Below, piece by piece: positions 8,957 to 44,293 of a stretch of DNA of 45,167 bases; position 1 is the first letter of the stretch, and the number at the start of each line of letters is the position of its first letter. A program made the translations under genes and the position numbers. Source of the stretch: an uncultured Ruminococcus sp. GTDB lineage: Bacteria > Bacillota > Clostridia > Oscillospirales > Acutalibacteraceae. A model generated the notes under the pieces. It was not told the origin of the DNA and did not search any database. It worked only from the letters and a program-made list of their open reading frames with translations. The stretch is from the NCBI GenBank assembly GCA_902777275.1, contig CACYTI010000017.1, forward strand, positions 1 through 45,167. Reading direction: 5' to 3'.

Positions 8957-9064
8957 GTAACATGGTATTCGCCCATGCACCGTGGTTGTTTCCACGTCCG
9001 ATTGTCGATAGAAATACAAACGTTTGGTGCAATGCCCCCGGACAGAAGCAAGCCCTGTCCCTAC
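8957..9064 (-). repeat. GTAGGG/CCCTAC-ended hairpin repeat, copy at 9 kb
   Basis: Read on the minus strand from 9064 it starts GTAGGGACAG, forms a stem GGACAG/CTGTCC, and runs through the family core (GACAATCGGACGTGGAAACA, then GGTGCA, GGGCG). The inner stem here is CGTGG/CCACG, whereas the 40-kb copies have GACGT/ACGTC, so pairing is kept with different bases. The distal hairpin has decayed and the terminal CCCTAC is lost, so the left boundary is approximate. It fills the gap between truA and the DUF5711 gene; no gene is seen at 8867-9135. Confidence 0.75.
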
Positions 9065-18221: not shown

Positions 18222-18264
18222 TAATTTATTAATTATTAAAAGTACGCTTAAACCGCGTTTTTAT

Positions 18265-20961: not shown

Positions 20962-21043
20962 AGTATACCTCATTTCTAAAAAGATATTGTTTCTTTTGTA
21001 AATACGTCATAATAACACATATACTATTACAACTATTTATTAT

Positions 21044-21412: not shown

Positions 21413-21685
21413 ATGAAATATAAAAGCACCGGAATAGTGCGCAAAACCCATGAACAAATCGACGTTAAGGAGCGCGGACTGATTGTCGGCTCAGCCGACC
21501 GCGGACCGGGTGCAGCTTCAAGCTGCCTCAGCCGACCGGACGGGGAACAAACGTCGGTGAACCAAAAGGCTCATATGTTCCTTAAGGCACGTGACAATAT
21601 GAACAACATGAACACTATGTGTTTGACAGAGTCCGCCAAGAGGTCTTTTCTTTGCCGTACCGACAAGGACTTTGTTGACAGATAA
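21413..21685 (+). pseudogene. Possible AbrB/SpoVT-type remnant
   Basis: The 90-residue frame begins MKYKSTGIVRK, which is the usual opening of SpoVT/AbrB-like transition-state regulators. IDVKERG follows shortly, where the family would have a longer beta-hairpin. After that the frame crosses the hairpin repeat at 21486-21580 and loses any family resemblance. I read it as a degraded regulator interrupted by a repeat element, not a working gene; chance resemblance of an 11-residue start cannot be excluded. The remainder of 21073-21412 shows no gene. Confidence 0.3.
21486..21580 (+). repeat. Hairpin repeat, divergent copy at 21.5 kb
   Basis: Contains a stem GTCGGCT-C-AGCCGAC, a second stem GCAGCTT-C-AAGCTGC, and then CCGGACGGGGAACAAACGTC followed by GGTGAACC. 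This last part aligns with the core of the 40-kb copies (CGGACGTGGAAACAACGTC then GGTGCAAGG). End points are approximate. Confidence 0.55.
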
Positions 21686-21711: not shown

Positions 21712-24700
21712 ATGTCCCTAAAAAAGAAACGATTCTGTATTTCGCTTAACGTGCAGAAATATTTTCATGAGATTATGGGTGACTACGACGGCGACGGCAA
21801 GGAAGAGTTGGCGTATTATATGCCCGATAAAAAGAACGACGGCGACGCCAACGACGCGCGCGTGATCGTTATGAACATAGACGTAAACAACGGCAGCTAT
21901 TCGCACAGTCAGCTCGGCGCCTTATACGTAAAGGACTTTACCTCCGATTACGGAAAAATGGGCGTGGGCTGGAGGCTTCCCACCGTGGCGCTGTCCACCA
22001 CCTCTACCCGTCTGGGCAATGAGAAAAGCGCTTCCGTAGGCGCGAAGCAGTACGAAACGCACGACGACCTTGTTATGACCGTCTCGGTTCCCACCGAGTA
22101 CAGAGACGACAACCTCGATCTGAACTCTATCACCAAGATATTCACATTTGAAGGCGGAAGCGCACAGCAGCTTTTCCGCTATGAATACACTCCCTTTGAC
22201 AAAAACAAAAAGCGTATGAATTACCCGAACACCTGCGACGCCGACCTGAACGGCGACGGCTTCAAGGAGCTTGTTGTAGCAGGTATGATGGAGTATGAAA
22301 TGAATACCCCCTCGGGATCAAACGATACAAACCGCAACTGGGGTCCGATCTCAAACAAAACGAATTATGTGAATATCATCACGCACAACGGCTCAAAATA
22401 TGAAATGGTATGGGAAACCCCGATGGAGGTCAAAGCTCCCGGCAACCTCAGACCCGAGCACTACATTTCCGTTGAGCCTATCGCCCTTTGCGCGGGCCAC
22501 TTTATGTACGACACTCCCGGCACAAAAGACCAGCTCTGCGTTCAGGGCGTTATTCTGGACTGCAACGGATCGAAGGTGACGGGCGCCCCCGTGCATTCCG
22601 GACAAAACAGCAAGGGCAAAACCGTTAATATCATCACCGACACAAAGCCGCATTACGACAAGGATAACTTCGGCTCGGACGTGAGCTTCAGCAATGAATA
22701 CATATATGACATCACCCGTGATGATACAGTTAACGCGTCGGGCTACCCTTGGGTAGACCAGTGCGTATCGGGACGTTTTCTTGACGGGACCGATGTCGAT
22801 CAGATCGCGCTTATGTCCAGCGACCCCGTAAACGCGAACGACGACAATCTCTATATGGATTTCTCCATTATTTCTCACAGCCGCGTCGATGAGAATTCCG
22901 ACCCCGAATGGACTTTCAAGCCGTTTAACGACTACTTAAGCAAGAAGAACGAGGACGACGAAGGCACCACAATGTTCCTTGCCTTTGTAAATTGCGAGGA
23001 GGATTCCTACTACTACCGTTACGCGGGCACCTACACCACCTATTCCGCGCCTGTGCTGTATTCGGTCGTACAGGCTCCGCCCTATTACAGAGAGGCGAAC
23101 TCCGTTTCGGTTTCCAAGTTCAGCATTACAACGGGCGTTTCAAACTACGACAAGCTGAGCATCGGATTGGGCGGTTCGGTATCCGAACAAACAACCGCAG
23201 ATATTTCGTTCGCGGGTTACGGTATCTCCTTGGGAGTCAGCACTTCGATAGGAGTGGATTTTGCCTATAACCATACATGGACAAGGCAAAAGACCGTAAC
23301 AAAGAGCATTTATCTTAAATCCGACGCCGACTACGCGGTTTGTTACGCGGTACCCATGCTTGTGAATAACTACGAGGTAGTAAGAACCAAGGACCCGAAC
23401 GAAGAGCCCGAAATGGTGCAGATAACCGAGCCTTTGGAGCCCATGTTCGTCGCGCTTACCGTTGACGAATACAACGCCGCCGTTACGGGCGCGCTCGATA
23501 ATTACACCGATGACCCCGAAGAATATTCACCCGACAAGGATACCCCTGTGATCGACAAAAGCGATCTGCCGCCATCATCAGCCGGTGACCCCGTCGCTTA
23601 TGCCCACTCACTAAAGGACGCTATCGGTGAGGAGACTATCGGCAGAACCGATACCAGCCGCGGTATGCTTGACGCGGATATCAATTCCACGATAGACAAG
23701 GCGGAAACCTCGATCTCATTTACCTCGTCAAACGATAACTCCGGAAGCGTAACGCTCAAATCCTCGGTGTCATTTATCGTGGGCATATCCGCAAAGGTTG
23801 CCATGGGATTTTTCCCGGTCACAATGAAGGGCAATGTAAACCTGACGCTCAACGGTTCGATCGGCTACACGGGCGGACGCACCAACTCCTCCGGCGTAAG
23901 CTTTACAACGACCTATACGGGTCTGTCCAAGTCCCTGCCGGATGACATCAGCTTTGCAAGCGAAGCGAATAAATACAGCAAGCTCAACGCGATTATCAGC
24001 GGAAGCGTTCCCCTTGACAGCAACATACAGCACTATTCCCCCGGCGACTCCACCTACGCGTACAAGTCCGTTGCGGTTTGCTATCCGTTCGGCGATTATG
24101 AGGTTGAGGACAACGCGATCATCATTAACGGCTTTTACACCGAGCTGACCCCGAGACCTCCCGAACCCCCGAAGGAGTTTGCCGTTCAGTCGATTACAAA
24201 AACAAACTCCAACGGCGCGCTTGATGTGAACCTGATATGGAACAGCGCTACCCGCAATCAGGACCGCAGGGCGGACGGCTACAATATTTACCTTTTGGAC
24301 AAAAACCCGAATGAACCGTATCTGCACCTGCAAAATACGGAGGGACCCGTTTTCCCGGGCAGCGGCGACTATACCGAGTACAACGTTCACCTGAGAAATA
24401 ACGATTACGGGGACAAGGTCACCTTCTACATCGCGCCCGTTTACATGAATCTGAACACCAGCGGCGTATTGGTGGTCACCGAGGGCAACATCGGCAACAA
24501 AGCCGTTATCGGAAGCGTCAGTCAAGCCACCGACGGCAACGTTATCATTACAAAGCAGCCCGAAAATCAGCGGATAACAAGATCTGAGACAAACGAAACC
24601 GTTTCGTTTGAAATAGAGGCAGGCAAAAACAAACAAGCACCGGTTATAGGCCCCGTTACTTTTACATGGCAGCAGTTCGACAATACGGTCGAAAAGTGGA

Positions 24701-26463
24701 TAGACAAGAAAACCGAGACCGTCACCGTACCGAACAACGGCATATACAGAAACGTATACAGCTTTACGGTTCCTGCGGGTGAAAAAGAAGACTACGATGA
24801 AAGAGGCGTGCGCTGTCTTGTAGGCTGCGGAAATTACACGGTTCATTCCGATATCGTTGCGGTTATCCTCGACGATGACCCGCGTCCACTTGCGACTGTC
24901 AGGTATGAGGGCTGCGACGGCGCTCACCTCGCGTTCAAAGATTATGAAAACTGCTCGCTTATAAGCAATTCCTCCTGTCATTACAGCGCGAATGATACGG
25001 TGAAGCTCTCCGTTGACAACGCCGAATTGTTTGACAAGGGCGTTCACATTTTCGGAGAAACGGACAACGACATCACAAGTAATGTAAATATCGTTTATGA
25101 CCGCGCGAACAGCGAAATCAGATTTACCATGCCTGATCAGTATGTCTATATCTCGGTGCCCTCCATTCACCGTTACGTCAATGGAATTTGCGGCCACTGC
25201 GGTTTGTATGAGGCTCCGTCTCAAAACAGCGGCGGCTGCTATGAGCTTGCAAACGCGGGCAACTTCTTCTGGTTTGCTGCGCTTGTAAACGACGATCACG
25301 AGCACGCCGAATTTGACGAGCGCAACACCGAAGCCTTTGCGGTAATGACGGCAGATATCGATCTTGAAAAACGAACCTTCAACAATATCGGTAAGTTTTC
25401 AACGAGCATATACTCCAACGTTGACGAAATCTTTACCGGCTCTTTCAACGGACAGGGACACACGCTCAGCAATTTCTACACAAACGGCGCTTACAATCAG
25501 CGCGGCGTATTCGGCAACATCTGCGACGCGGAGATCGGAAATCTGACCGTGACCGGTGAGATCGACGCGACGAAGTTCGAGCTTGACAGCTACGCCACAC
25601 TGTTAGGCTTTATCTGCACGGCAAGCTCCTGCAATATCCACGACATCACAAGCTGTATTGACATTTGCAGCACAAGCAGCGCGACCAAGCAGATGGCGGG
25701 CGGAATTGCCGCCTCTGCAAACAGCAAAGTGAGCATAACGCGCTGTGTGAATCTCGGCGGCATCACACTCGGCGGCTTCAACAGTATGGCTTCCGGAATT
25801 ATCGCCGACGTATGGGGCAACGCCGAGGTCAAGGACTGCGCCAATTTTGGCGCGATCACCTGCGAAGAAGGCGACGCTGCCGGCATATTGACCTGCACCG
25901 AAGGCTCGAACAATAAAATAAATAACTGCTTCAACAGCGGCATACTCACAGGCGACATCGAATCAAGAGCCTCGGCTATAACGCTTTCCCGTGCGGACTA
26001 TTGCAGCATTCAAAACTGCTATCGACTTGACGGGACCGCTCCCGAACAGATTTATCCGGAGGAAGTTACCGTCAAGACGTCTGAGGAGTTTGCCTCCGGA
26101 GAGGTCGGATTCCTGCTCAACAACGGAGTGACCGACGGCACACAGGCGTGGTATCAGAACATCGACAACAACGCCGAGCCCGATCAATATCCCTTGCCCC
26201 GCAGCGCGCACGGCACGGTTTACCGGCTCGGAAGCAGCAGCTACTTCTCCAACAACCCCGAATTCCTGTTGGGAGACGTTAACCTTGACGGAGTGGTCGA
26301 TGTGCGCGATATTACCGCGATACAACGCTATATTTCTGAGTATAACGAATTGACCGTAAAACAGTTTGCCGCGGCAGACGTGGACAACAGCGGCAACGTG
26401 ACCGTATCCGATGCAACGCTCCTGCAAATGTATCTTGCGGAGTATAACGTTGTCTTAGGCTAA
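21712..26463 (+). CDS. Dockerin-bearing giant protein, 5'-truncated paralogue (possible pseudogene)
   Basis: 1583 aa, closely similar along its length to the protein starting at 26863, but homology begins only at GDYDGDGKEELAYY (residue 23; about nt 21779). The partner has 285 residues before that point, including the signal peptide. The 22 residues before the join (starting MSLKKKRFCISLN) are unrelated, and the ATG has no good ribosome site. Domains: FG-GAP-like DxDxDG loops (23-40, 172-190), beta-rich segment (about 470-560 and 665-760), FN3-like (about 814-935), Ig-like (944-1058), a CGHCG site (about 1160), GLUG/beta-helix (1177-1445), type I dockerin (1522-1583; GDVNLDGVVDVRD and ADVDNSGNVTVSD). 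Without a signal peptide it could not be exported as read, so it may be a decaying copy; the long intact frame argues for recent truncation. Confidence 0.7.
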   Translation: MSLKKKRFCISLNVQKYFHEIMGDYDGDGKEELAYYMPDKKNDGDANDARVIVMNIDVNNGSYSHSQLGALYVKDFTSDYGKMGVGWRLPTVALSTTSTRLGNEKSASVGAKQYETHDDLVMTVSVPTEYRDDNLDLNSITKIFTFEGGSAQQLFRYEYTPFDKNKKRMNYPNTCDADLNGDGFKELVVAGMMEYEMNTPSGSNDTNRNWGPISNKTNYVNIITHNGSKYEMVWETPMEVKAPGNLRPEHYISVEPIALCAGHFMYDTPGTKDQLCVQGVILDCNGSKVTGAPVHSGQNSKGKTVNIITDTKPHYDKDNFGSDVSFSNEYIYDITRDDTVNASGYPWVDQCVSGRFLDGTDVDQIALMSSDPVNANDDNLYMDFSIISHSRVDENSDPEWTFKPFNDYLSKKNEDDEGTTMFLAFVNCEEDSYYYRYAGTYTTYSAPVLYSVVQAPPYYREANSVSVSKFSITTGVSNYDKLSIGLGGSVSEQTTADISFAGYGISLGVSTSIGVDFAYNHTWTRQKTVTKSIYLKSDADYAVCYAVPMLVNNYEVVRTKDPNEEPEMVQITEPLEPMFVALTVDEYNAAVTGALDNYTDDPEEYSPDKDTPVIDKSDLPPSSAGDPVAYAHSLKDAIGEETIGRTDTSRGMLDADINSTIDKAETSISFTSSNDNSGSVTLKSSVSFIVGISAKVAMGFFPVTMKGNVNLTLNGSIGYTGGRTNSSGVSFTTTYTGLSKSLPDDISFASEANKYSKLNAIISGSVPLDSNIQHYSPGDSTYAYKSVAVCYPFGDYEVEDNAIIINGFYTELTPRPPEPPKEFAVQSITKTNSNGALDVNLIWNSATRNQDRRADGYNIYLLDKNPNEPYLHLQNTEGPVFPGSGDYTEYNVHLRNNDYGDKVTFYIAPVYMNLNTSGVLVVTEGNIGNKAVIGSVSQATDGNVIITKQPENQRITRSETNETVSFEIEAGKNKQAPVIGPVTFTWQQFDNTVEKWIDKKTETVTVPNNGIYRNVYSFTVPAGEKEDYDERGVRCLVGCGNYTVHSDIVAVILDDDPRPLATVRYEGCDGAHLAFKDYENCSLISNSSCHYSANDTVKLSVDNAELFDKGVHIFGETDNDITSNVNIVYDRANSEIRFTMPDQYVYISVPSIHRYVNGICGHCGLYEAPSQNSGGCYELANAGNFFWFAALVNDDHEHAEFDERNTEAFAVMTADIDLEKRTFNNIGKFSTSIYSNVDEIFTGSFNGQGHTLSNFYTNGAYNQRGVFGNICDAEIGNLTVTGEIDATKFELDSYATLLGFICTASSCNIHDITSCIDICSTSSATKQMAGGIAASANSKVSITRCVNLGGITLGGFNSMASGIIADVWGNAEVKDCANFGAITCEEGDAAGILTCTEGSNNKINNCFNSGILTGDIESRASAITLSRADYCSIQNCYRLDGTAPEQIYPEEVTVKTSEEFASGEVGFLLNNGVTDGTQAWYQNIDNNAEPDQYPLPRSAHGTVYRLGSSSYFSNNPEFLLGDVNLDGVVDVRDITAIQRYISEYNELTVKQFAAADVDNSGNVTVSDATLLQMYLAEYNVVLG

Positions 26464-26862: not shown

Positions 26863-29800
26863 ATGCAGATGTTAAGGTTCGGGAAAAAATTACTTGCTGC
26901 ATTTCTGTCGGCGGCTATCATAACGCCGGCGCTTGCGTTTCCCGCGGCGGCTTCCGCGGCGGAAGTGCAAAGCAGTGTCACAGAGACCCCGGAAGACACT
27001 GATGACGTCACCTATGATGAAGAAGCGGACGCGTCGGGTACCGATGTAGTCAGCCAGTACAGCGCCGATGAGGTCGCGGTCGATCTGCTCGTTTCGCACA
27101 CGGGCAAATCGAGCGAGCTTGAAAACTCGCCTGCCGCTGAGGTCGTCAACAGCGCTGACGACGACAACTTCATCAGCCTTTCATGCAGCAGCGAGCTGTA
27201 CGATTCGCTCGGCTTTAATTCCGAAATGATGAAGCAGGATATGCGCGCAACGGCAAAGGATCCCGCTTATCAAAACCCGTTGGCGGGCTATACGTTTGTT
27301 GACCCGAACGAGCTGCTCGTCGGCTCGGTAAACCACACGGGCAGCCATGAGGTGCTGTTTGAGACCTTTGACAACGTGAACAAGACGAGCGCGTCCGATC
27401 TGCCCGGCTTGAGCGAAATGGCAAAAAATACAAACGACTACGCATTTACGGAAGACTCGAACAATCAGACCCATAACGGCGTCGGGATAGACATCGACGG
27501 CGACGGTATAGAAGAGTTGGCGTATTACAGCCTGTTTTATAATTCCAACGAAAGCATTGGTCAAAAAGGAAGCTCCGTTTGGGTCGATATTTTCAAAAGG
27601 GTTCCCGACGGCGACAGCTGCAAGTGGCAGGCTGTGCACAGCTTCCACGATTTTATGCGTGAGGACAATTATGTTTTGGACTTTGAAGCCGCCGAAACGA
27701 AGGGATATGTTTCGCTCGCGGCGGGCGACTACGACGGCGACGGCAAGGAAGAGTTGGCGTATTATATGCCCGACAAAAGCGGCGACGCCACCTCTGACGA
27801 CGCGCGTGTCGTTGTTATGAATATCGACGAGAACAACGGCAGCTATTCGCACAGCGCACTCGGCTCTGTATACGTAAAGGATTTCACAGCCGATTACAGG
27901 AAGATGGGCTTGGACGGACGGCTCCCAACCGTTGCGCTGTCAACCACCTCCACCCGTCTGGGAAATGAGAAAAGCGCTTCCGTCGGCGCGAAGCAGTACG
28001 AAACGCACGACGACCTTGTAATGACCGTTTCGGTTCCCACAAGTGAAAGAACCCATAATCTGTATCTGAATTCTATCACAAAGATATTCACGTTTGAAGG
28101 CGGAAGCGCGCAAGAGCTGTTCCGCTACGAGCATCTTCCCTATGACAATTATACAAAGCGAATGAATTATCCGAACACCTGCGACGCCGACCTCAACGGC
28201 GACGGTTTTAAGGAGTTAGTTGTAGCCGGTATGCTGGAGCAGAATATGACCAAACCGGGCAACGCGGACGACACAAACCGCAATTTCGGCACTATCTCAA
28301 ACAAAAAGAATCTTGTTAACATCATCACGCACAACGGCACAAAATACGAAATGGTGTGGGATACTCCCGTTGAGGTCGAAGCTCCGGGCAACCTCAGCCC
28401 CGAGCACTACGTTTCCATTGAGCCCATCGCTCTTTGTGCGGGTCACTTTATGTATAACACCCCTGGCACAAAAGACCAGCTCTGTATTCAGGGCGTTATT
28501 TTAGACTGTCAGGGCGCAAAGGTGACGGGCGCTCCAATCCGTTCCGGACAAAACGGCAAGGGCGAGACCATAAACATCATCGTTGACTCTCAGCCGCATT
28601 ACGACAAGGAAAACTTCGGCTCGGGCGTGAGCTTCAGCAATGAGTATGTATATGACATCACGAAAGAAAGCACCGTTCACGCGTCGGGCGACCCTTGGGT
28701 AGACCAGTGCGTATCGGGACATTTTCTTGACGGAACCGACGTTGACCAGATCGCTATCCTGTCAAGCGACCCCGAGAATGTGATCGACGATAAAATCTAT
28801 ATGGATTTCTCCATAATATCTCACTACCGCTTGGACGTCGAGCACGACCCGCAATGGACTTATAAGGCGTTTAACGACTACATAAACGACAAGGACGAGG
28901 ACGACGACGGAACCTCGATGTTCCTCGCCTTTATAAACAGCGAAGAGGACTCCTACTACTACCGTTACGCGGGAACCTATACCACTTATTCCGCGCCTGT
29001 GCTGTACGCGGTCATGCAGTCTCCGCCCTATTACAGAGAGGCAAATTCCGTTGCGACAAACAAGTTTACCATCACATCGGGAATTTCGGACTACGACAAG
29101 CTGAGCCTCGGCTTAGGCGGAGCCGTCAGCGAATCGGCGACCTACGAGGAATCCTTTGCAGATATGGGAATATCCCTTGGCATAGGCACGTCGATAGGAG
29201 CGGATTTTGCCTATAACCATACATGGACAAAGCAAAAGACCATTACAAAGAGTATTTATGTCAAATCAAACGACGACTATGCGGTTTGCTACGCGGTTCC
29301 AATGGTTGTAAACAACTACGAGGTCGTGAGAACCAAGGATCCGGAAGAGGAGCCCCAAATGGCGCAGGTGACAGAACCGATGGAGCCGATGTTCGTCGCG
29401 CTGACAATTGACGATTACAACGACGCCATTACGGACGCGCTCGATTCATACACCTCAGACCCCGAGGTGCTTTCACCCGACACCAATACTCCTATCATTC
29501 ACAAAAGCGAGCTGCCGCCTTCATCGGCGGGCGATCCCATAGCTTACGCCCATACCCTAGACGATGCCATAGGCAATTACAGCGGCAACAAAGGCATAGT
29601 CGAATCGGATATCAATTCCACTATCGACAAAGCCGAAACCTCGGTCTCCTTCTCCTCCTCAAACGATAACTCCGGAGGCGTAGCGCTCAAAGCCTCGCTC
29701 ACATTTACCGTGGGCGCGACCACCAAGTGTCCCATACCCTTGGCGTCGGTCAAAGGCTCCACCAGCCTTGTGCTTTCCGGGTCGATCGGCTACACCGGCG

Positions 29801-32385
29801 GACGCACGACCTCAAGCGGCGTAAGCTTCCTGACGACCTATACGGGTGTGCCAACCACTCTGCCAGACGGCGTCGGCTTCTCGTCCAACTCAAGCCGTTA
29901 CAGTATGCTCAGCGAGTATGTCAGCGGAAGCGTTCCGCTCGACAGCGATATACGCCACTATTCTCCCGGCGGTCTGACCTACGCTTACAAAACGGTCTCT
30001 GTTTGCTATCCGTTCGGCGGAATGCAGGCTGACGGAAACGATGTTATTGTTTCGGGCTATTACACCGAGCCTTACGACAACCCGCCGGAAGCGCCGAGGG
30101 AGTTTTCGATTCAGTCTGTAATAGAAAACACCGACGGCTCTGTGGACGTTACACTGATGTGGAACAGCGCGTTGTATGATCATGAACGCAAGGCGGACGG
30201 ATACAACATCTATATGCTGGATATGAACGACAGCCAAAAGGAGCTGCATCTGCAAAACCACGAGGGCTTGATTCCGCCGAAAGCAAACGCGGACTACACC
30301 ACCTACACCATACACCTTGAAGAAACCGAGCACGACAATTCTCTCACCTTCTACATCGCTTCCGCATATGCCGAGCTGAACTCGGGCGGCGTATATATCG
30401 TTTATGAGGGCAACGTCGGCAGCAAAGCCGTTTTGGGCAACGTTGAGGAAGCGGTCAACGGAAATCTGTTGATCACCGAGCAGCCCGAGACCTTTTACAT
30501 GAAGAACAATTACGCCGACGAGACCGCTGTCTATGATATTGAGGTGAGCAAAAAATACGAAAGCGGAAAACCCGTTTATTTCAGATGGGAGCTGTATAAC
30601 AAATCGCGCGGCAGCTGGAAAGAAATAGAGACCGACGTCGCCGTTTTGCCGGACAGCAACGGCAACTACAGAAGCGAGTGCAGCTTTACCGTGCCGGGCG
30701 ACAAGAAGAACCGCTACGATGAATCGGGCGTGCGGTGCATTGCGACCTGCGGCAACTATTCCGTCCGCTCCGACATAGTCGGGCTGGAAAAGGATCCCGA
30801 CCCGCGCCCCGTCGCGAGAATACAGTACGAGGGCTGTGACGGCGCTCATCTTACCTTCAAGGAATACGCTTCCGACGGTCTGATCGACGAATTCAACTGC
30901 TACTATAACCCCGGAGACACCGTAAAGCTTTCTGTCGGCAACGCCGAGGTTTTTGACAAGGGAATCCGCCTTACGGAAGAAATATACGGCGACATCACAA
31001 ACAGCGCCGACCTTGTTTATGACAGGCAAAACAACGAAATCAGATTTACCATGCCGAGTCATTATGTCTATATAGAGCCCGCCTCTATCCACGATTTTGT
31101 CAACGGCGTTTGCGATTGCTGCGGTTGGTACGAAGCCGCCTCTAAAAACAGCGACGGCTGTTATGAAATCAAAAACGCAGGCAACTTCCTCTGGTTCGCC
31201 GCGCTTGTAAACGACGAGCACGAGCACGCCGATTTTGAACAGCGCGACAGCGGAGCCGACGCCGTTCTGATGAACGACATCGACCTTGAGAACCGCCCGT
31301 TCACAAACATAGGAAAATTCAAATCGGCATTGCAGGCAGACGACGAGGACAAGTATAAGGGCGACTTTGACGGTCAGGGACACACCATAAGCAACTTCTT
31401 CGCCGACGGCTCGTTTAACCGTCTCGGTATGTTCGGCGTCGTGTCAGGCTCCACCATTAAGAACCTCACCGTGAAGGGAACGATCGACGCGACAAATTCC
31501 GTTACCGACGACGATACGCTTCTTTCGCTGATCGCCTACACCGCATTAAATGTCAATGTTACCGATGTGACCGCTGATATAGATATCACAGGCGGAGAAA
31601 ATCAAAAAATAGGCAGTGCGGCAGGCATAGTCGCAATAGCGCTTTCCCAGCTTAACATGACGCGCTGTGTCAGCCTTGGCGATATCAATATTGATGATAC
31701 CAATTGCGAGGTGGGAGGCTTATCTGCCGAAATTGGAATGTACTGCGTGCTCCGCGACTGCGCGAATTTAGGAAATGTCACATCGTTACAAGGTTTAGCG
31801 GGTGGTATCGTCGGCATAACGGAAACAGCGAGTTGTCAGATCATAAACTGCTGCAACATCGGAACGGTCACCGCGGCTTCGCAGGACGACGCAGACGCGA
31901 TCGCTGTATCCTCATTTACAAACGCGATCGAAAACTGCTATTATCTCGACACCTGCGGCTCCTCTGAATATGCTACGCCCAAAACGGCTGCGCAGTTTGC
32001 CTCGGGCGAGGTGGGATATCTGCTGAACAGCGCAGTGACCGACGGCACTCAGGCGTGGTATCAGAATATCGACAACGACGGACTGCGCGACTGGTATCCG
32101 CTTCCCGACAAGGCTCACGGCACGATCTACCTGCTTGACGACGGCGTGACCTACTCAAACTATACCGCACCGATTCAGATCACCTTGGGCGACGTCAACT
32201 TTGACGGTATAATTGACGTCCGCGACGTGACGCCGATCCAGCGCCACCTCTGCGAATACCGGGAACTGACCGCAAAGCAATTGAAAGCCGCCGACACAAC
32301 AGGCGACGGCAACATAACCGTGCTGGACGCGACGCTCCTGCAAATGTACCTTGCGGAGTATAACGTCGCTTTGGGAAATCAATAG
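26863..32385 (+). CDS. Secreted giant dockerin protein with FG-GAP-like, putative beta-barrel, FN3/Ig and GLUG domains
   Basis: 1840 aa. Signal peptide 1-33 (basic start, long hydrophobic core, AAASA cleavage region). FG-GAP/EF-like calcium loops at about 206-222 (DIDGDGIEELAYY), 286-304 (GDYDGDGKEELAYY) and 440-455 (DADLNGDGFKELVVAG). A beta-rich stretch of about 740-850 contains GISLGIGTSIGADFAYNHTW then TKQKTITKSIYVK, alternating small/polar and hydrophobic residues as in aerolysin/ETX-type pore loops; a second such stretch lies at 935-1000. FN3-like 1075-1193, Ig-like 1200-1310, Cys motif CDCCGWYE near 1415, GLUG/beta-helix 1430-1700, type I dockerin 1776-1838. AAGGAG precedes both ATGs (26863 and 26869); 26869 has the better spacing. 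No catalytic domain is recognised. The pore-like reading is inference. Confidence 0.85.
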   Translation: MQMLRFGKKLLAAFLSAAIITPALAFPAAASAAEVQSSVTETPEDTDDVTYDEEADASGTDVVSQYSADEVAVDLLVSHTGKSSELENSPAAEVVNSADDDNFISLSCSSELYDSLGFNSEMMKQDMRATAKDPAYQNPLAGYTFVDPNELLVGSVNHTGSHEVLFETFDNVNKTSASDLPGLSEMAKNTNDYAFTEDSNNQTHNGVGIDIDGDGIEELAYYSLFYNSNESIGQKGSSVWVDIFKRVPDGDSCKWQAVHSFHDFMREDNYVLDFEAAETKGYVSLAAGDYDGDGKEELAYYMPDKSGDATSDDARVVVMNIDENNGSYSHSALGSVYVKDFTADYRKMGLDGRLPTVALSTTSTRLGNEKSASVGAKQYETHDDLVMTVSVPTSERTHNLYLNSITKIFTFEGGSAQELFRYEHLPYDNYTKRMNYPNTCDADLNGDGFKELVVAGMLEQNMTKPGNADDTNRNFGTISNKKNLVNIITHNGTKYEMVWDTPVEVEAPGNLSPEHYVSIEPIALCAGHFMYNTPGTKDQLCIQGVILDCQGAKVTGAPIRSGQNGKGETINIIVDSQPHYDKENFGSGVSFSNEYVYDITKESTVHASGDPWVDQCVSGHFLDGTDVDQIAILSSDPENVIDDKIYMDFSIISHYRLDVEHDPQWTYKAFNDYINDKDEDDDGTSMFLAFINSEEDSYYYRYAGTYTTYSAPVLYAVMQSPPYYREANSVATNKFTITSGISDYDKLSLGLGGAVSESATYEESFADMGISLGIGTSIGADFAYNHTWTKQKTITKSIYVKSNDDYAVCYAVPMVVNNYEVVRTKDPEEEPQMAQVTEPMEPMFVALTIDDYNDAITDALDSYTSDPEVLSPDTNTPIIHKSELPPSSAGDPIAYAHTLDDAIGNYSGNKGIVESDINSTIDKAETSVSFSSSNDNSGGVALKASLTFTVGATTKCPIPLASVKGSTSLVLSGSIGYTGGRTTSSGVSFLTTYTGVPTTLPDGVGFSSNSSRYSMLSEYVSGSVPLDSDIRHYSPGGLTYAYKTVSVCYPFGGMQADGNDVIVSGYYTEPYDNPPEAPREFSIQSVIENTDGSVDVTLMWNSALYDHERKADGYNIYMLDMNDSQKELHLQNHEGLIPPKANADYTTYTIHLEETEHDNSLTFYIASAYAELNSGGVYIVYEGNVGSKAVLGNVEEAVNGNLLITEQPETFYMKNNYADETAVYDIEVSKKYESGKPVYFRWELYNKSRGSWKEIETDVAVLPDSNGNYRSECSFTVPGDKKNRYDESGVRCIATCGNYSVRSDIVGLEKDPDPRPVARIQYEGCDGAHLTFKEYASDGLIDEFNCYYNPGDTVKLSVGNAEVFDKGIRLTEEIYGDITNSADLVYDRQNNEIRFTMPSHYVYIEPASIHDFVNGVCDCCGWYEAASKNSDGCYEIKNAGNFLWFAALVNDEHEHADFEQRDSGADAVLMNDIDLENRPFTNIGKFKSALQADDEDKYKGDFDGQGHTISNFFADGSFNRLGMFGVVSGSTIKNLTVKGTIDATNSVTDDDTLLSLIAYTALNVNVTDVTADIDITGGENQKIGSAAGIVAIALSQLNMTRCVSLGDINIDDTNCEVGGLSAEIGMYCVLRDCANLGNVTSLQGLAGGIVGITETASCQIINCCNIGTVTAASQDDADAIAVSSFTNAIENCYYLDTCGSSEYATPKTAAQFASGEVGYLLNSAVTDGTQAWYQNIDNDGLRDWYPLPDKAHGTIYLLDDGVTYSNYTAPIQITLGDVNFDGIIDVRDVTPIQRHLCEYRELTAKQLKAADTTGDGNITVLDATLLQMYLAEYNVALGNQ

Positions 32386-36516: not shown

Positions 36517-36668
36517 CCCGTTGCCACGGGAGGGCAATCCGCGCCTCTTTACATCATAAAAAAACCTTCCTCTAACTCACGCGTTAAAACGCGACGCCCG
36601 TTGCAACGGGAGGGCGATCCGCGCCTCTTAACTTCATAAAAAAACCTTCCTCTAACTCACGCGTTAAA
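36517..36668. repeat. Tandem 72-bp direct repeat
   Basis: Units 36517-36588 and 36597-36668 are nearly identical. Each has a CCCGTTGC...GCAACGGG-type hairpin at its start, GATCCGCGCCTCTT-like middle and CCTTCCTCTAACTCACGCGT at the end. Only the second unit is followed by the complementary GGAAGG arm, so the first carries half of a terminator. Confidence 0.9.
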
Positions 36669-40093: not shown

Positions 40094-40314
40094 TGAGTAT
40101 CATCGGCAAAAATGCCTTTGTATGGGATTTTGCCGGTTTTTATCAGCTCCGCCGCGCGCGCGAAATTCTTCGGCACAACAAGGCTGTAACCGCAGGAGCC
40201 TTTTCTCAGCCGTGCCGGGGTGCGGATAACGCGCGAGAATATCCCGTTTGCGCGCAGCAGTTCCTTTGACTTCATCGCGTTCGTGACGGAGACAAAGGTA
40301 ATAATATTTTCCAT
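40090..40314 (-). CDS. DUF3343 small protein (putative Se/S carrier)
   Basis: 74 aa, starting MENIITFVSVTNAMKSKELL with a conserved CGYSLVV containing its only cysteine (about residue 41). This matches DUF3343, small proteins often encoded beside selenium or sulfur metabolism enzymes. GAGGTG is 6 bases before the ATG. It is first in the operon DUF3343-cysteine desulfurase-cdaA-cdaR. A minus-strand -10-like TATAAT lies about 45 bases upstream without a clear -35. Confidence 0.85.
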   Translation of the reverse strand: MENIITFVSVTNAMKSKELLRANGIFSRVIRTPARLRKGSCGYSLVVPKNFARAAELIKTGKIPYKGIFADDTQ

Positions 40315-40427
40315 TGCTTCACCTCATAAATCCTGATTGTATTCCTACATTACATTATATGAAAAAAGCGGTAAAGGGGTGTAAACGGTGTTGATGGATA
40401 AATTGATTTGAAGGTAGCCTTCTTGCT

Positions 40428-40542
40428 GTAGGGACAGCACTTGCGGCTGTCCAAGGGCGCTGAATCAAACGTTCTGTTTCCTTTCAACAATCGGACGTGG
40501 AAACAACGTCGGTGCAAGGGAGCCCGCAAGGGACTCCCCTAC
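40428..40542 (+). repeat. GTAGGG/CCCTAC hairpin repeat, copy 1 at 40 kb
   Basis: 115 bp from GTAGGG to CCCTAC. First hairpin GGACAGC/GCTGTCC; core with GAATCAAACGTTCTGTTTCC and CAACAATCGGACGTGGAAAC; inner stem GACGT/ACGTC; last hairpin GGGAGCCC-GCAA-GGGACTCCC with one bulged base. The interval 40315-41007 holds no gene, only these repeats. Confidence 0.85.
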
Positions 40543-40584
40543 GATGTCAAGGTAAGGTTTACTATGAATTTTACCTTTACTGCC

Positions 40585-40700
40585 GTAGGGACAGCCCTTG
40601 CGGCTGTCCAAGGGCGTTGAATCATAAGTTGTGTTTCCTATCAACAATCGGACGTGGAAACAACGTCGGTGCAAGGGCGAACACACGGGTTCGCCCCTAC
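40585..40700 (+). repeat. GTAGGG/CCCTAC hairpin repeat, copy 2 at 40 kb
   Basis: 116 bp, the best-preserved copy. First hairpin GGACAGCC-CTTGC-GGCTGTCC (8 bp perfect), same core, inner stem GACGT/ACGTC, last hairpin GGGCGAAC/GTTCGCCC (8 bp perfect), closing CCCCTAC. It is 42 bases after copy 1 in the same orientation. Confidence 0.88.
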
Positions 40701-40802
40701 AACGTGATTATAATGCGGATATAACGGTCGCCTTGGGTGCACGTCGGAATTGTATGCTGTTATCCATTTGCATTGGGAAAATATGCCGTTAGCCGTATGG
40801 TC

Positions 40803-40897
40803 GTAGGGGCGCACCCGCGTGTGCGCCCAAGGGCGCTGAATCAAACGTCTTGTTTCCTACCGACAATCCGACGGAAAACAAACGTCGTTGCGAGGGC
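40803..40897 (+). repeat. GTAGGG hairpin repeat, copy 3 at 40 kb (3' truncated)
   Basis: Starts GTAGGGGCGCAC; first hairpin GGGCGCAC/GTGCGCCC, different in sequence from copies 1 and 2 but equally paired. The core is present, with inner stem CGACG/CGTCG replacing GACGT/ACGTC. The last hairpin and the CCCTAC end are missing after GAGGGCAT. Confidence 0.8.
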
Positions 40898-41007
40898 ATA
40901 TTAAAACCCGCATTAATATTTATTCCATATAAAACTTTTATCCTTTTCACAACCGAATATATGCAATACTAACAAAAAGTTATGCTAAATTTTGGCTTGA
41001 TATATAA

Positions 41008-41036
41008 TTGTAAAGCGCCGAAAAATAAGATATAAT
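41008..41036 (+). promoter_or_regulatory. Promoter of the 984-aa dockerin protein gene
   Basis: -35 TTGTAA (41008-41013), 17-base spacer, -10 TATAAT (41031-41036), about 45 bases before the ATG, followed by a GAGGAGG ribosome site. Confidence 0.72.
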
Positions 41037-41080
41037 CAGTATAAGCAATAATATTTTATTTAACTAAGAGGAGGATATTT

Positions 41081-44035
41081 ATGTTAAAAAAAGCGTTTGC
41101 GGTGCTTTTGGCTTTTGTTCTGTTGGCTACGGTTTTTCCGGTCAACGTTATGGCAGCCGATGACGAACCGCAGGAAGAACCGCAGTTCACCGAGATAAGG
41201 ACGGTCGAAGAGCTGTACAAGGTCAACCTGAACCTTGCGGGAAATTACCGGCTGATGAACGACATCGACCTGACCGAGGCGACCGCGCAGGGCGGCGACT
41301 GGGATTTCGGCGGCAGAGGCTGGGAGCCGATCGGCAGTAACGGTAATTACGGAAAAAACAATCCTTTTACCGGCGTTTTTGACGGTAACGGATACAAAAT
41401 AAAAGGAATGTATATTAATATTATTAGTAGATATAGTAAAATTTCCGACAATCTACCAAAAACTATAACAAACATAAATGAAATCTATTTGGGCTTATTT
41501 TCCGCAAATAGTGGAACTATAAAGAATTTAACTGTTTCGGGTGGAATATATGGGAAAGGTTATCTCCACTACGCCGGCGGTATTGTCGGAACAAATATTG
41601 GTGGTATTATTGAAAACTGCGTTAACGATTGTGATTTGTTGTTAGATAGAGCTTCCGGCTATACTCATTTTTGGTCGGGAATAGCCGGAACATCTTCCGG
41701 CGGAACTATTTCTCGATGCTTTAATAGAGGAGCAGTGACAATTGAAGCAGGGGGAGAGCCAGCGGGGAACGGTTGGTATTATGCTTCCGGTATAACTTAT
41801 GGAAACAACGTGGGAGAAAACCCTACAATTACCAACTGCTACAACACCGGCTTAATTTACGCTCACACCGACTATCTTTATTATTCGGATCACGCGCATG
41901 CCTATGGTATCTCAAAATATGGTATAATCTCCAATTGCTACAATATAGGATCCATAGGTCCCGGAGGACTTAAAAACAAGTATGCAATCTCAGAATCAGG
42001 TTTCATAACAAACTGTTATTATCTTGACGGAAGGGGAGAAGGCACAGACGGAACAAAATCATTAACACCTGCTCAAATGAAAATGCAAATGATGTATAAC
42101 GGCTTTGATTTTGATAATGTATGGTTTATTGATAGTAATTGTGATTATCCATATCCGCAATTAAGAACGAATCCTGTATATCAATACGAATTGGTAGGTT
42201 TGGAGCTTGATGATATACAATTAGATAAAGGGGATGTTACAGGACTGACTGTTAAATACATCCCGGATTACACCACCGACCCGAAAACCGTCACTTGGAC
42301 ATCTTCCGACGATTCGATAGCTTCGGTCGACGAAAACGGAACAGTTACCGCGCACAAAAAAGGCACGGCGACAATCACCGTAACATCCGACAACGGCGTG
42401 CAGGCGAGCTGTGTTGTGACGGTGCTTGTTCCGATGACAGAAATAACCTTTGAAAAAAGCGAGGTCACGATTCCGCGCGGTGCACGTCAAAATGTGAATT
42501 TCACCGTTTTGCCCTCCGACACCACTGATACTTACACCGTTACAAGCTCCGACCCCGAAATCGCGACCGTTGATATAATCGGCAACGTGACCGCCCTAAA
42601 AGTCGGCACGGCGGTTATTACCGTTAAGTCCTCACGAGGCTTGGAGCAGTCGTGTGTTGTTACTGTAAACTCTCCCGCTTCTTCGATAACCGTTTCCGAG
42701 TCAAGCAAAACCCTTTTTGCGGGCAGAGCATTTGACCTTACGGCTGAATTGTCGCCCAAGGACACCACCGACGGCATAACGTGGACTTCCTCCGACGAAA
42801 GCGTTGCGGCAGTGACGCCCGAAGGCAGGGTCACGGCGGTTGCAAAGGGTAAAGCCGTAATCACCGCAACAGCCGACAGCGGCGCGTCCGCAGAGTGCGA
42901 GGTGACGGTAGAGAGCGATATTGCGGCGACAACTATTTATCTCGCCTATCAGGAAACCGAGTACAGCGGCAGCGAAAAAACTCCCGAGGTAAACGTTTAT
43001 TACAACGGCGAAAAGCTTGTTGAAAACACCGACTACAGCCTCTCTTATGTCAACAACATAAACGCGGGCAAAGCGAGCGTTTACATCACCTCGCTGTACG
43101 ACGGCACAGATATTGAAAAGAACTTTACCATTAATCCGGTTTCGGTCAAGGTGGCTGATATCTCGTATAAACTGTTTGTGACCTACACGGGCAGCCCCCT
43201 CACCGCGCTGGAGGAAGTCACCTATCAAGCGCTGCGCCTTGCGGAGGGAACCGATTACGAGGTGAGCTACGAAAACAACGTAAACGCGGGAACCGCAACG
43301 CTGACCGTTACGGGCAAGGGCAACTACTGCGATTCGGCGGTAAAGACATTTACCGTTATGCCGAAATCCATAGCGTCGACGACGGTTTCTTTGGAAACGG
43401 ATTCCTACCGCTTCGACGGCTCCGCAAAATGCCCCACAGTTACCGTCAGAGACGGCGAAAAGGTCTTGACTGAAAATGTTGACTACGAGCTGAACTACTC
43501 CGACAACACCCATGTGGGCGACGCGGTCGTAACCGTGACGGGCATAGGAAACTACAGCGGCGCGACAAACACCGGTTTTAAGATTTATCCAAAGTCTATT
43601 TCCGACGCTGTTTTCACTCTCGGCAACACGGTTTTCGCCTGCGACGGCACCGAGAAATGCCCCGAGGTTCGCATAGAAGACAACGGCGTTGTTCTCACAG
43701 AAGGCGTGGATTACATTGTTGAGTACAGAAACAACAAGGACGCCGGAACTGCTACGGTGACTGTAACGGGACAAAACGACTATACCGGAACGCTCACGGC
43801 TGAATTTACAATCGTTCAGATCGGCGACGTAGACCGCAACGGCACTGTAGATATTCAGGACGTAACCGTGCTGCAACGCCATTTGGCTGAGTTCGTCAAC
43901 GCCGACGGCTCTCCCATAATCGACGAAGCCGACGAAGAAATGCTGAAAATCGCCGACGTAAACCGCGACGGCATTGTAACGATTTTCGACGTAACAACGA
44001 TCCAACGCTATCTCGCCGAAATGATAGATCTATAA
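41081..44035 (+). CDS. Secreted GLUG/Big2/dockerin protein
   Basis: 984 aa. Signal peptide 1-26 (MLKKAFAVLLAFVLLATVFP, VMAAD cleavage). GLUG/beta-helix region about 37-365 with NDIDLTE, FTGVFDGNGYKIKGM and repeated ISNCYN-type rungs. Three Big2-like Ig domains about 370-610 (TWTSSDDSIASVDENGTVTA and relatives). Four about 75-residue beta repeats with NNxNAGTATxTVTGKGNY endings (about 612-910). Type I dockerin about 914-984 (GDVDRNGTVDIQDVT and ADVNRDGIVTIFDVT). No catalytic domain is seen, so it probably is an adhesive or structural component docked to a cohesin. GAGGAGG 7 bases before ATG. The GLUG region (about 41345-42240) is strikingly AT-rich compared with the rest. Confidence 0.9.
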   Translation: MLKKAFAVLLAFVLLATVFPVNVMAADDEPQEEPQFTEIRTVEELYKVNLNLAGNYRLMNDIDLTEATAQGGDWDFGGRGWEPIGSNGNYGKNNPFTGVFDGNGYKIKGMYINIISRYSKISDNLPKTITNINEIYLGLFSANSGTIKNLTVSGGIYGKGYLHYAGGIVGTNIGGIIENCVNDCDLLLDRASGYTHFWSGIAGTSSGGTISRCFNRGAVTIEAGGEPAGNGWYYASGITYGNNVGENPTITNCYNTGLIYAHTDYLYYSDHAHAYGISKYGIISNCYNIGSIGPGGLKNKYAISESGFITNCYYLDGRGEGTDGTKSLTPAQMKMQMMYNGFDFDNVWFIDSNCDYPYPQLRTNPVYQYELVGLELDDIQLDKGDVTGLTVKYIPDYTTDPKTVTWTSSDDSIASVDENGTVTAHKKGTATITVTSDNGVQASCVVTVLVPMTEITFEKSEVTIPRGARQNVNFTVLPSDTTDTYTVTSSDPEIATVDIIGNVTALKVGTAVITVKSSRGLEQSCVVTVNSPASSITVSESSKTLFAGRAFDLTAELSPKDTTDGITWTSSDESVAAVTPEGRVTAVAKGKAVITATADSGASAECEVTVESDIAATTIYLAYQETEYSGSEKTPEVNVYYNGEKLVENTDYSLSYVNNINAGKASVYITSLYDGTDIEKNFTINPVSVKVADISYKLFVTYTGSPLTALEEVTYQALRLAEGTDYEVSYENNVNAGTATLTVTGKGNYCDSAVKTFTVMPKSIASTTVSLETDSYRFDGSAKCPTVTVRDGEKVLTENVDYELNYSDNTHVGDAVVTVTGIGNYSGATNTGFKIYPKSISDAVFTLGNTVFACDGTEKCPEVRIEDNGVVLTEGVDYIVEYRNNKDAGTATVTVTGQNDYTGTLTAEFTIVQIGDVDRNGTVDIQDVTVLQRHLAEFVNADGSPIIDEADEEMLKIADVNRDGIVTIFDVTTIQRYLAEMIDL

Positions 44036-44216: not shown

Positions 44217-44293
44217 CGGGATGTAGCGCAGTTTGGTAGCGCACACGTCTGGGGGGCGTGGAGTCGCAAGTTCAAGTCTTGTCATCCCGACCA
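44217..44293 (+). tRNA. tRNA-Pro (anticodon GGG)
   Basis: 77 nt with encoded CCA. Acceptor stem CGGGATG/CATCCCG, D-arm GCGC...GCGC, anticodon stem CACGT/GCGTG with loop CTGGGGG (anticodon GGG), T-arm GCAAG-TTCAAGT-CTTGT, discriminator A. It reads CCC (and by wobble CCT) codons. Confidence 0.95.

Follow-up and report, generated by a model that had tools for sequence, protein, structure and literature searches.

Inverted repeats with arms that change sequence from copy to copy but keep their pairing could belong to a structured RNA or DNA under selection or to a mobile element that needs its hairpins. Which of these accounts for a ~115-bp repeat in an uncultured Ruminococcus sp. (GenBank assembly GCA_902777275.1) is the question raised by this locus. 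The window, i.e., the whole stretch of DNA analyzed, comprises 45,167 nucleotides of contig CACYTI010000017.1. The original prediction, made from the letters alone, placed a run of three copies within 40428-40897 and a fourth copy at 9 kb, and all four were recovered with nhmmer (E values, 1.1e-30 to 1.3e-21).

Structure and distribution of the repeat

The following features of the window relate to the repeat; genomes and loci are designated throughout by G and L numbers, respectively.

8964..9064, minus strand: diverged 9-kb copy (nhmmer E value, 1.3e-21)
21533..21559, plus strand: possible fragment of the 3′ half of the core (nhmmer E value, 0.002; weak)
40428..40542, plus strand: element copy 1, complete, read from the sequence (nhmmer E value, 1.1e-30); GTAG, 5′ hairpin GGACAGC/GCTGTCC, core, 3′ hairpin GGGAGCCC/GGACTCCC (one mismatch), CTAC
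40543..40584, no strand: spacer between tandem copies 1 and 2, with recurring flanks by eye
40585..40700, plus strand: element copy 2, complete, read from the sequence (nhmmer E value, 4.4e-34); 5′ hairpin GGACAGCC/GGCTGTCC, core, 3′ hairpin GGGCGAAC/GTTCGCCC, CTAC
40803..40897, plus strand: element copy 3, without a 3′ hairpin, read from the sequence (nhmmer E value, 3.1e-24); 5′ hairpin GGGCGCAC/GTGCGCCC and core

The element predicted from these copies is a pair of GTAG-tagged REP hairpins, inverted around a core of ~65 bp. The proposed GTAGGG/CCCTAC ends are present on both complete copies. The hairpins were also as first described, with GGACAGC(C) as the first hairpin of copies 1 and 2 and GGGCGCAC as that of copy 3, and with GGGAGCCC/GGGACTCCC and GGGCGAAC/GTTCGCCC as the last hairpins of copies 1 and 2, respectively. 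In the 9-kb copy, the 5′ hairpin is weakened to a 6-bp stem by eye and the 3′ hairpin has decayed; the hairpin script identified no 7-bp stem at either end. More diverged relatives had been suggested near 21.5 and 32.5 kb. Only a short, weak fragment could be identified at the first, with an E value (0.002) barely better than that of the best match in 225 kb of shuffled sequence (0.0073), and the second was not reported by nhmmer at E values up to 10; by eye, the 32.5-kb site resembles a decayed inverted 3′ end.

The genome totals 2.59 Mb in 57 contigs. BLAST searches with copy 1 gave 60 matches, some merely short end pieces, and 57 distinct element places, partial copies included, were identified in the loci read (nhmmer rows with E values up to 1e-3). 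Complete copies (n = 28) ran from a GTAG-like start to a CTAC-like end over 113 to 118 bp. Two copies with an interrupted 5′ hairpin (L130 and L116) were retained among the 28, 17 long-enough nhmmer rows with an unreadable start or end were dropped (rows from overlapping loci being counted separately), and shorter rows were skipped. Within a 442-kb sample of the genome, none of 40 copies had the greater part of its length within an ORF of 200 aa or longer, such ORFs making up 78% of the sample. The elements are scattered between genes, often in tandem, and no plasmid copies were found.

Full-element matches with E values up to 1e-5 were obtained in 20 of 150 genomes of the genus, several of them to one hairpin only, and the core type of the window's element was seen in G141 (L185). 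The element upstream of the neighboring aminotransferase-like gene was absent in eight of eight relatives. These were considered as carriers of an exact empty site, which was rejected: the next gene in all eight differs from the dockerin gene of the window, and the site is therefore not a clean empty one. Direct signs of movement (a transposition event, a circle, or an exact empty site) were not seen.

Dockerin domains were identified in two proteins of the window, and the ORF at 21712-26463 (1583 aa) ends in such a domain. This ORF and its neighbor at 26863-32385 (1840 aa) have long repeats in common, with 73 to 84% identity. A 36-bp repeat array at 18232-19035 lies inside a long minus-strand ORF (18265-20973), and two tandem repeats of ~80 bp with a CCCGTTGCCACGGGAGGGC palindrome were found at 36517-36668; a similar piece is fused to the element in L126.

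Arm words and retention of pairing

GTAG hairpins with a stem of at least 7 bp numbered 66 in the 442-kb genome sample, compared with 12 in 290 kb of Markov-shuffled sequence. Their arms were GGGCGCAC (n = 16), GGGCGAAC (n = 11), GGACAGCC (n = 7), GGGCGACC (n = 5), GGGAGCCC (n = 4), GGACAGGG (n = 4), and TGACAGGG (n = 3), together with 16 singletons; seven words cover 50 of the 66 hairpins. One hairpin, GTAGGGGCGCAC-CCGCGT-GTGCGCCC, was found in identical form in many species of the genus.

Pairing in the 28 complete copies was compared with that obtained when second arms were redealt among copies (2000 shuffles, with G-T scored as a pair). In the 5′ hairpin, 208 of 224 cells were paired (reassignment mean, 166.6; maximum, 191), and in the 3′ hairpin 217 of 224 (mean, 180.0; maximum, 200). 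As both counts exceed the shuffled means, pairing of the end hairpins has been retained amid base changes, in agreement with the original prediction. The changes mostly exchange whole discrete words, alongside a handful of compensated pairs private to one copy (GGTCGCAC/GTGCGACC in L117, for example). Covariation had also been claimed for the inner stem (GACGT/ACGTC), a claim that did not hold up, with 114 of 140 cells paired against a shuffled mean of 114.4. The wider central core stem likewise showed no clear covariation (81.9% paired versus 80.8% when shuffled, with 41 of 500 shuffles reaching the observed value).

The two ends of the element favor different words. ACAG-type arms were present at 10 of 28 5′ ends and at 0 of 28 3′ ends, and GCGAAC, the commonest 3′ word, was present at 12 of 28 3′ ends and at 0 of 28 5′ ends. 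Only 4 of the 28 complete copies carried the same word at both ends, and 6 combined GCGCAC with GCGAAC. A GTAG foot at both ends of most complete copies and many intergenic copies (57 places, with 0 of 40 mainly in an ORF) are characteristic of GTAG-type REPs, short palindromes with GTAG or GTGG at the foot, and two inverted REPs with a spacer that can be folded as one hairpin are characteristic of REPINs. The same REP at both ends, a further REPIN character, was not the rule among the complete copies; given ends with unequal words, the element was filed as REPIN-like/BIME-like and not as a strict REPIN. BIMEs are alternating REPs joined by recurring short motifs. By eye, cores and spacers recur here joined by hairpins, and the type of spacer at 40543-40584 recurs beside other element copies in the genome. 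Since spacers recur between tandem copies, the arrays look mosaic and BIME-like; by description, BIMEs may share this architecture, with other motifs.

An insert of ~50 bp was found near the loop in five GGGAGCCC hairpins, all at the 3′ ends of elements (L008, L009, L016, L024, and L025), and other palindromic inserts were found near the loops of hairpins of several words (L012, L020, L116, and L130). REP loops look like insertion targets for a second small repeat family.

RAYT-like genes carry element words in frame

A partner transposase of the Y1/REP type was sought, as had been suggested, and a Pfam search identified three Y1 transposase genes in the genome, of which one was IS200-like and two were RAYT-like.

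L032, 1291-1821: RAYT gene between argH and argC
L033, 1318-1836: RAYT gene behind gltX

Both RAYT-like proteins scored above the cutoff for PF01797. The best NCBIfam family for both was REP_Tyr_transpos, yet their scores of 63.3 and 75.3 bits did not reach its cutoff of 80. The motifs of RAYT/TnpA_REP proteins (Y1 HuH, Y---NP, and WQ) were all identified, as PNHLH, YIEENP, and WQRGYYEH in the L032 protein and as ANHVH, YIDENP, and WQRSYFDH in the L033 protein. Downstream of the L033 gene lies what we take to be glnS. The location of both genes beside housekeeping genes suggests that they are stably kept.

Each gene carries two inverted GTAG hairpins within its reading frame. The L032 gene has GGGCGCAC twice and the L033 gene has GGGAGCCC and GGACAGCC; GCGAAC was found in neither. 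The proposal of a MITE- or REP-like mover that needs hairpins is supported, since the GTAG hairpins in the two RAYT-like genes use arm words also found in the element. In-frame REPs between HuH and Y in the transposase gene are the feature of TnpA_REP subclass 2.4; the HuH sequences here are NHLH and NHVH, and the consensus of the subclass is NH[IFV]H. A derivation of the element core from the RAYT segment between the hairpins was considered and rejected, as no resemblance could be seen by eye.

Hairpins inside other RAYT genes

A scan of named genomes confirmed 446 relatives, of which the best 80 were kept; the highest scoring was in an Oscillospiraceae MAG (L034, 46%). A GTAG hairpin lay inside the matched gene in 52 of these best 80 of 446, with none in 28. 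In the same 80 loci, hairpin density was 2.31/kb in the gene compared with 0.57/kb in the flanks, scoring palindromes with GTAG at both feet on both strands in gene and flank alike. In-gene hairpins of this set lay mostly just after the HuH motif. Seven loci (L034, L036, L063, L069, L082, L095, and L100) had one clearly before it, at match codons 33 to 54, and the titles of these, L063 excepted, name Clostridia, Oscillospiraceae, or Ruminococcus. When the best 80 of 446 and the genome's own two genes (82 genes) were read from 60 nt upstream of the match, plus-strand hairpins occurred 43 and 18 times in the open codon phases and twice in the phase where TAG is a stop, both of the latter upstream of the match. 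Short tandem repeats coding for CRGDSH at the end of the RAYT gene in L066, a named Nitrospirae relative (match codons 174 to 198), were scored as hairpins by the script.

The structure model of the L034 protein (mean pLDDT, 88.5) placed the hairpin-coded peptides in loops on either side of the HuH strand, at residues 40 to 48 and 95 to 102 by our count, where ten-residue blocks had mean pLDDT values of 71 to 82. Its top PDB match, the first of 511, was 4ER8, a TnpA_REP bound to a REP hairpin (E value, 6.7e-7). Two hairpins could be read in each of 19 RAYT genes of the genus, and in 11 of these genes both had the same word (shuffled mean, 1.8). Seven of these 11 belong to the L032 orthologue group, and the figure for the other genes is thus 4 of 11.

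RAYT orthologues between argH and argC

Close matches to the L032 RAYT (E values up to 1e-40) were identified in 11 of 161 genomes of the genus, own genome included, and 9 of the 11 sit between argH and argC. The other eight share 88 to 95% identity with the genome's own argH, 89 to 94% with argC, and 59 to 74% with the RAYT. These nine syntenic orthologues with argH/argC flanks indicate that the RAYT gene kept its place. Their in-gene words are given in the order first/second hairpin; A denotes GCGCAC and B denotes GCGGAC.

G000, G141, G024, and G090: A/A
G043 and G053: B/B
G072: A/B (mixed)
G153: -/A, the first hairpin having A-type arms with GTAG lost
G057: both in-gene hairpins lost, frame open

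The outermost G-C pair of the first hairpin has been lost in G141 and G090. Behind the frame of G057, starting 8 to 155 nt from it, are two A hairpins and a GGTCGCAC hairpin. Outside the synteny group, G134 carries GGGCGACC twice and G123 carries GGGCGGAT once.

In eight of the nine syntenic orthologues, GCGCAC or GCGGAC hairpins were thus kept within the gene, at matching codons of the alignment. Words A and B differ by three amino acids and one silent site across both hairpins, with the pairs kept. G053 and G043 are parted by A genomes on the argH+argC tree, and each in-gene hairpin has therefore changed word at least twice on this tree, in which the node joining G090 to G072 has weak support (0.326). 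In the tree of RAYT proteins, by contrast, G043 groups with G072 (support, 0.977), and the RAYT gene may therefore have recombined between species.

Fourfold sites were compared in eight of the nine syntenic orthologues, G057 being left out because its hairpins are lost. The sites were identical in 136 of 154 comparisons for the first hairpin and in 141 of 145 for the second (277 of 299 together), whereas outside the hairpins 263 of 718 agreed. When synonymous codons were reshuffled, 0.30 hairpins were expected in the eight genes, where 15 were seen. Judged from these counts, the hairpin codons are nearly frozen at synonymous sites.

Genome-wide words and the RAYT gene

Four words, selected since they are seen in RAYT genes, were counted: A, B, C (GGACGACC), and D (GGGCGAGC). 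A RAYT match was present in 23 of 60 sampled genomes of the genus, and 19 of these entered the counts; G003, G028, G038, and G045, with partial RAYT matches only, were left out. The RAYT words themselves were taken from the 30 loci returned, a subset of the match rows. Controls with the backward pattern were all 0.

Word A: G000, 47 copies; G013, 32; G057, 23; G024, 3; G053, 3; G043, 2; G006, 2
Word B: G043, 21 copies; G053, 20; G006, 1
Word C: G004, 18 copies; G012, 13; G035, 13; G017, 4; G041, 1
Word D: G013, 11 copies; G024, 3

All remaining combinations of genome and word gave 0. Copies outside the RAYT gene were present in all 9 cognate cells (135 copies in total) compared with 8 of 67 noncognate cells (68 copies; Fisher P = 1.7e-7). 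At least five extra copies were found in 7 of the 9 cognate cells, a number reached in 0 of 20000 permutations of word sets among genomes. G013 had 32 GCGCAC copies, though the one RAYT found there carries GCGAGC, and G057 had 23 copies of GCGCAC, though its gene has lost the hairpins; in the latter, the word stands beside the gene.

Two further genomes were also examined. In G134, 14 hairpins fitting the pattern lay outside the gene, all with the in-gene word GGGCGACC. In G072, five lay outside the gene, all A, and B was found solely in the RAYT gene (1 of 7 matched, for the exact pattern only); as B was found nowhere else, the in-gene copy was not taken from the present-day majority of the genome. 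In one contrast, the loops followed the gene as well. The second loop base was T in 16 of 18 outside B copies in G053, where the in-gene loops are CTGTGT, and in 0 of 19 in G043, where the in-gene loop is CCATGT, although this loop itself was present in only 1 of those 19.

The same words occur on elements with other cores in other species. Judged by eye, what looks like a single core, that of a 109-bp element, is joined at a given end to either GCGAAC or GCGGAC, and L168 and L193 show both states within G103.

Comparison with known systems

Published work already covers REPINs, BIMEs, RAYTs, GTAG REPs, orthoswitches, and REPs that lie within tnpA_REP genes, and the likenesses and differences given here refer to excerpts of the papers cited. 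REPINs (Bertels and Rainey 2011, PMC3116915) are alike in having two inverted REPs and a spacer in a long hairpin or clover fold, tandem clusters, linkage to RAYTs, and frequent compensatory changes; the present elements differ in mixing several arm words in one population, in their end-specific preference, and in the conserved core of ~65 bp. GTAG REPs (Di Nocera 2013, PMC3733652) likewise have a GTAG foot, fall into subfamilies whose stems use alternative complementary bases, form head-to-head dimers, and occur in frame within genes. The host here belongs instead to the Clostridia, in keeping with its dockerin domains and its best-scoring named RAYT relative, and the excerpted text of that paper is without Clostridi-, Ruminococc-, or Faecalibacterium.

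In-frame REPs in tnpA_REP genes were described for subclass 2.4 (Quentin 2018, PMC6006769), which is alike in its WQ motif, in the insertion between HuH and Y, and in a stem foot of three G-C pairs in GGG words. Here, in contrast, a second in-frame hairpin lies before HuH so that the pair brackets the HuH segment, the same word occupies both hairpins of many genes, and words differ between orthologues. These three differences are undescribed in the excerpted main text of Quentin 2018, its supplementary figures aside, and the excerpts of Nunvar 2010 (PMC2817692) have no passage on in-gene REPs. An orthoswitch is a difference in the REP classes beside orthologous RAYTs, by a mechanism called unknown (Nunvar 2013, PMC3686654). 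The likeness lies in different REP classes beside syntenic orthologous RAYTs, followed by spread of the new class; there, however, the REPs flank the gene, whereas here they occupy fixed codons of the coding sequence itself, and one gene is mixed. In the excerpts of the literature searched, supplements aside, no account was found of HuH being bracketed by two hairpins, of one RAYT gene having the same word in both, or of an orthoswitch inside a coding sequence.

Proposed mechanism and alternative explanations

The repeat appears to be a nonautonomous REPIN/BIME-like element that was most likely spread by the RAYT (TnpA_REP) proteins of its genome. Cleavage is known for other TnpA_REP proteins. 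In vitro, such enzymes need GTAG, and mismatches in the stem can abolish activity; stems swapped to their complement are often tolerated, depending on the enzyme, and loop bases can matter (excerpts of PMC8266576). In the proposed mechanism, a paired hairpin in single-stranded DNA would be recognized by a RAYT at its GTAG foot, where the enzyme would cut and rejoin. An enzyme that needs GTAG and an intact stem, and often tolerates other stem sequences, would leave the arms free to change if paired, which would explain arms that vary but pair. The RAYT gene carries two such hairpins in frame, in two loops on either side of HuH, and the words of the genome track those in its RAYT gene. A word change would then take place in both the RAYT gene and the REP population of the genome, with pairing kept, as an orthoswitch inside a reading frame. 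Discrete words, pairing, in-gene hairpins, gene position, word differences between orthologues, and the genome-wide match are read at the level of sequence; from them we infer the cutting, the copying, and which of gene or genome changes first. The different word preference at the two ends of the element is not predicted by a plain REPIN and counts against the REPIN reading.

The hairpins in the gene are probably REPs of this kind, held to the words of the genome's population. They could well be passive, as REPs that landed in permissive RAYT loops and are overwritten again and again by gene conversion from copies at other places, with the gene following the genome. Loss of both hairpins from G057 with the frame still open, and the location of both hairpin-coded peptides in loops of the L034 model, are consistent with such passivity, and the excerpts of Quentin 2018 (PMC6006769) take the insertion as peripheral. 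Repeated insertions would also give hairpins in both open codon phases, as seen (43 and 18); the same aligned codons in eight of nine syntenic orthologues count against passivity. Passive hairpins are also difficult to reconcile with G072, where the B word is solely in the RAYT gene and the five hairpins outside are all GCGCAC; this one genome speaks for the gene leading the genome. The corresponding proposal, that the in-frame RAYT hairpins are the master copy of the REP word of the genome, is tentative and may be thought doubtful.

Descent alone, with a few old REP families copied long ago and no current link to a RAYT, is an unlikely explanation. It would fit the coverage of 50 of 66 hairpins by seven words and the letter-identical GTAGGGGCGCAC-CCGCGT-GTGCGCCC in many species of the genus. 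Words that track the RAYT gene across genomes are not expected from it, nor is the G103 core with two words at one end (L168 and L193; by eye). Vertical inheritance of RAYTs is in print (excerpts of PMC8049555). For the hairpins of the RAYT gene, arms conserved only by descent are disfavored, as the argH+argC tree calls for at least two word changes in orthologous hairpins that still pair, and this explanation is largely refuted there by the orthologue data; for the interspersed copies, it is only partly excluded.

A structured regulatory RNA family under selection, with hairpins acting in transcripts, had been offered as one reading of the paired arms with compensated changes, and is highly improbable. 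It is favored by the stable folds of four copies (z, -2.9 to -5.7, with DNA parameters); two of these formed one long hairpin and two formed three stems, in line with REPIN architecture. The only Rfam match over threshold in the window was, however, a tRNA at 44217-44290; the best weak match over the array at 40.4 to 40.9 kb had an E value of 0.33, and no terminator-like site was identified in 40100-41090. The central and inner stems are without clear covariation, the words follow the transposase gene, and the compensated changes are mostly a few discrete words and not many independent pair changes, which also leaves a structured RNA unsupported. Movement by an unrelated DDE transposase, as ordinary MITEs with TIRs and with an incidental RAYT match, would fit the inverted ends and constant length (113 to 118 bp) but is scarcely credible for ends that are GTAG hairpins with the words of RAYT genes.

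If the master-copy proposal is true, the coding loops of a RAYT also serve as the substrate by which the repeats to be spread are set, and a new word within the gene would rewrite the repeat population of a species. Each such RAYT gene would then hold, in its coding sequence, the address of the elements that it copies. Because the hairpins lie at fixed codons in a gene of the arginine operon, each hairpin state can be aligned and compared with the repeats of its genome, and with a half-switched gene in hand (G072, A/B), the question of how such repeats change becomes testable. The hairpins are also a clear example of a bacterial gene whose synonymous sites, nearly frozen, report DNA structure and not protein function.
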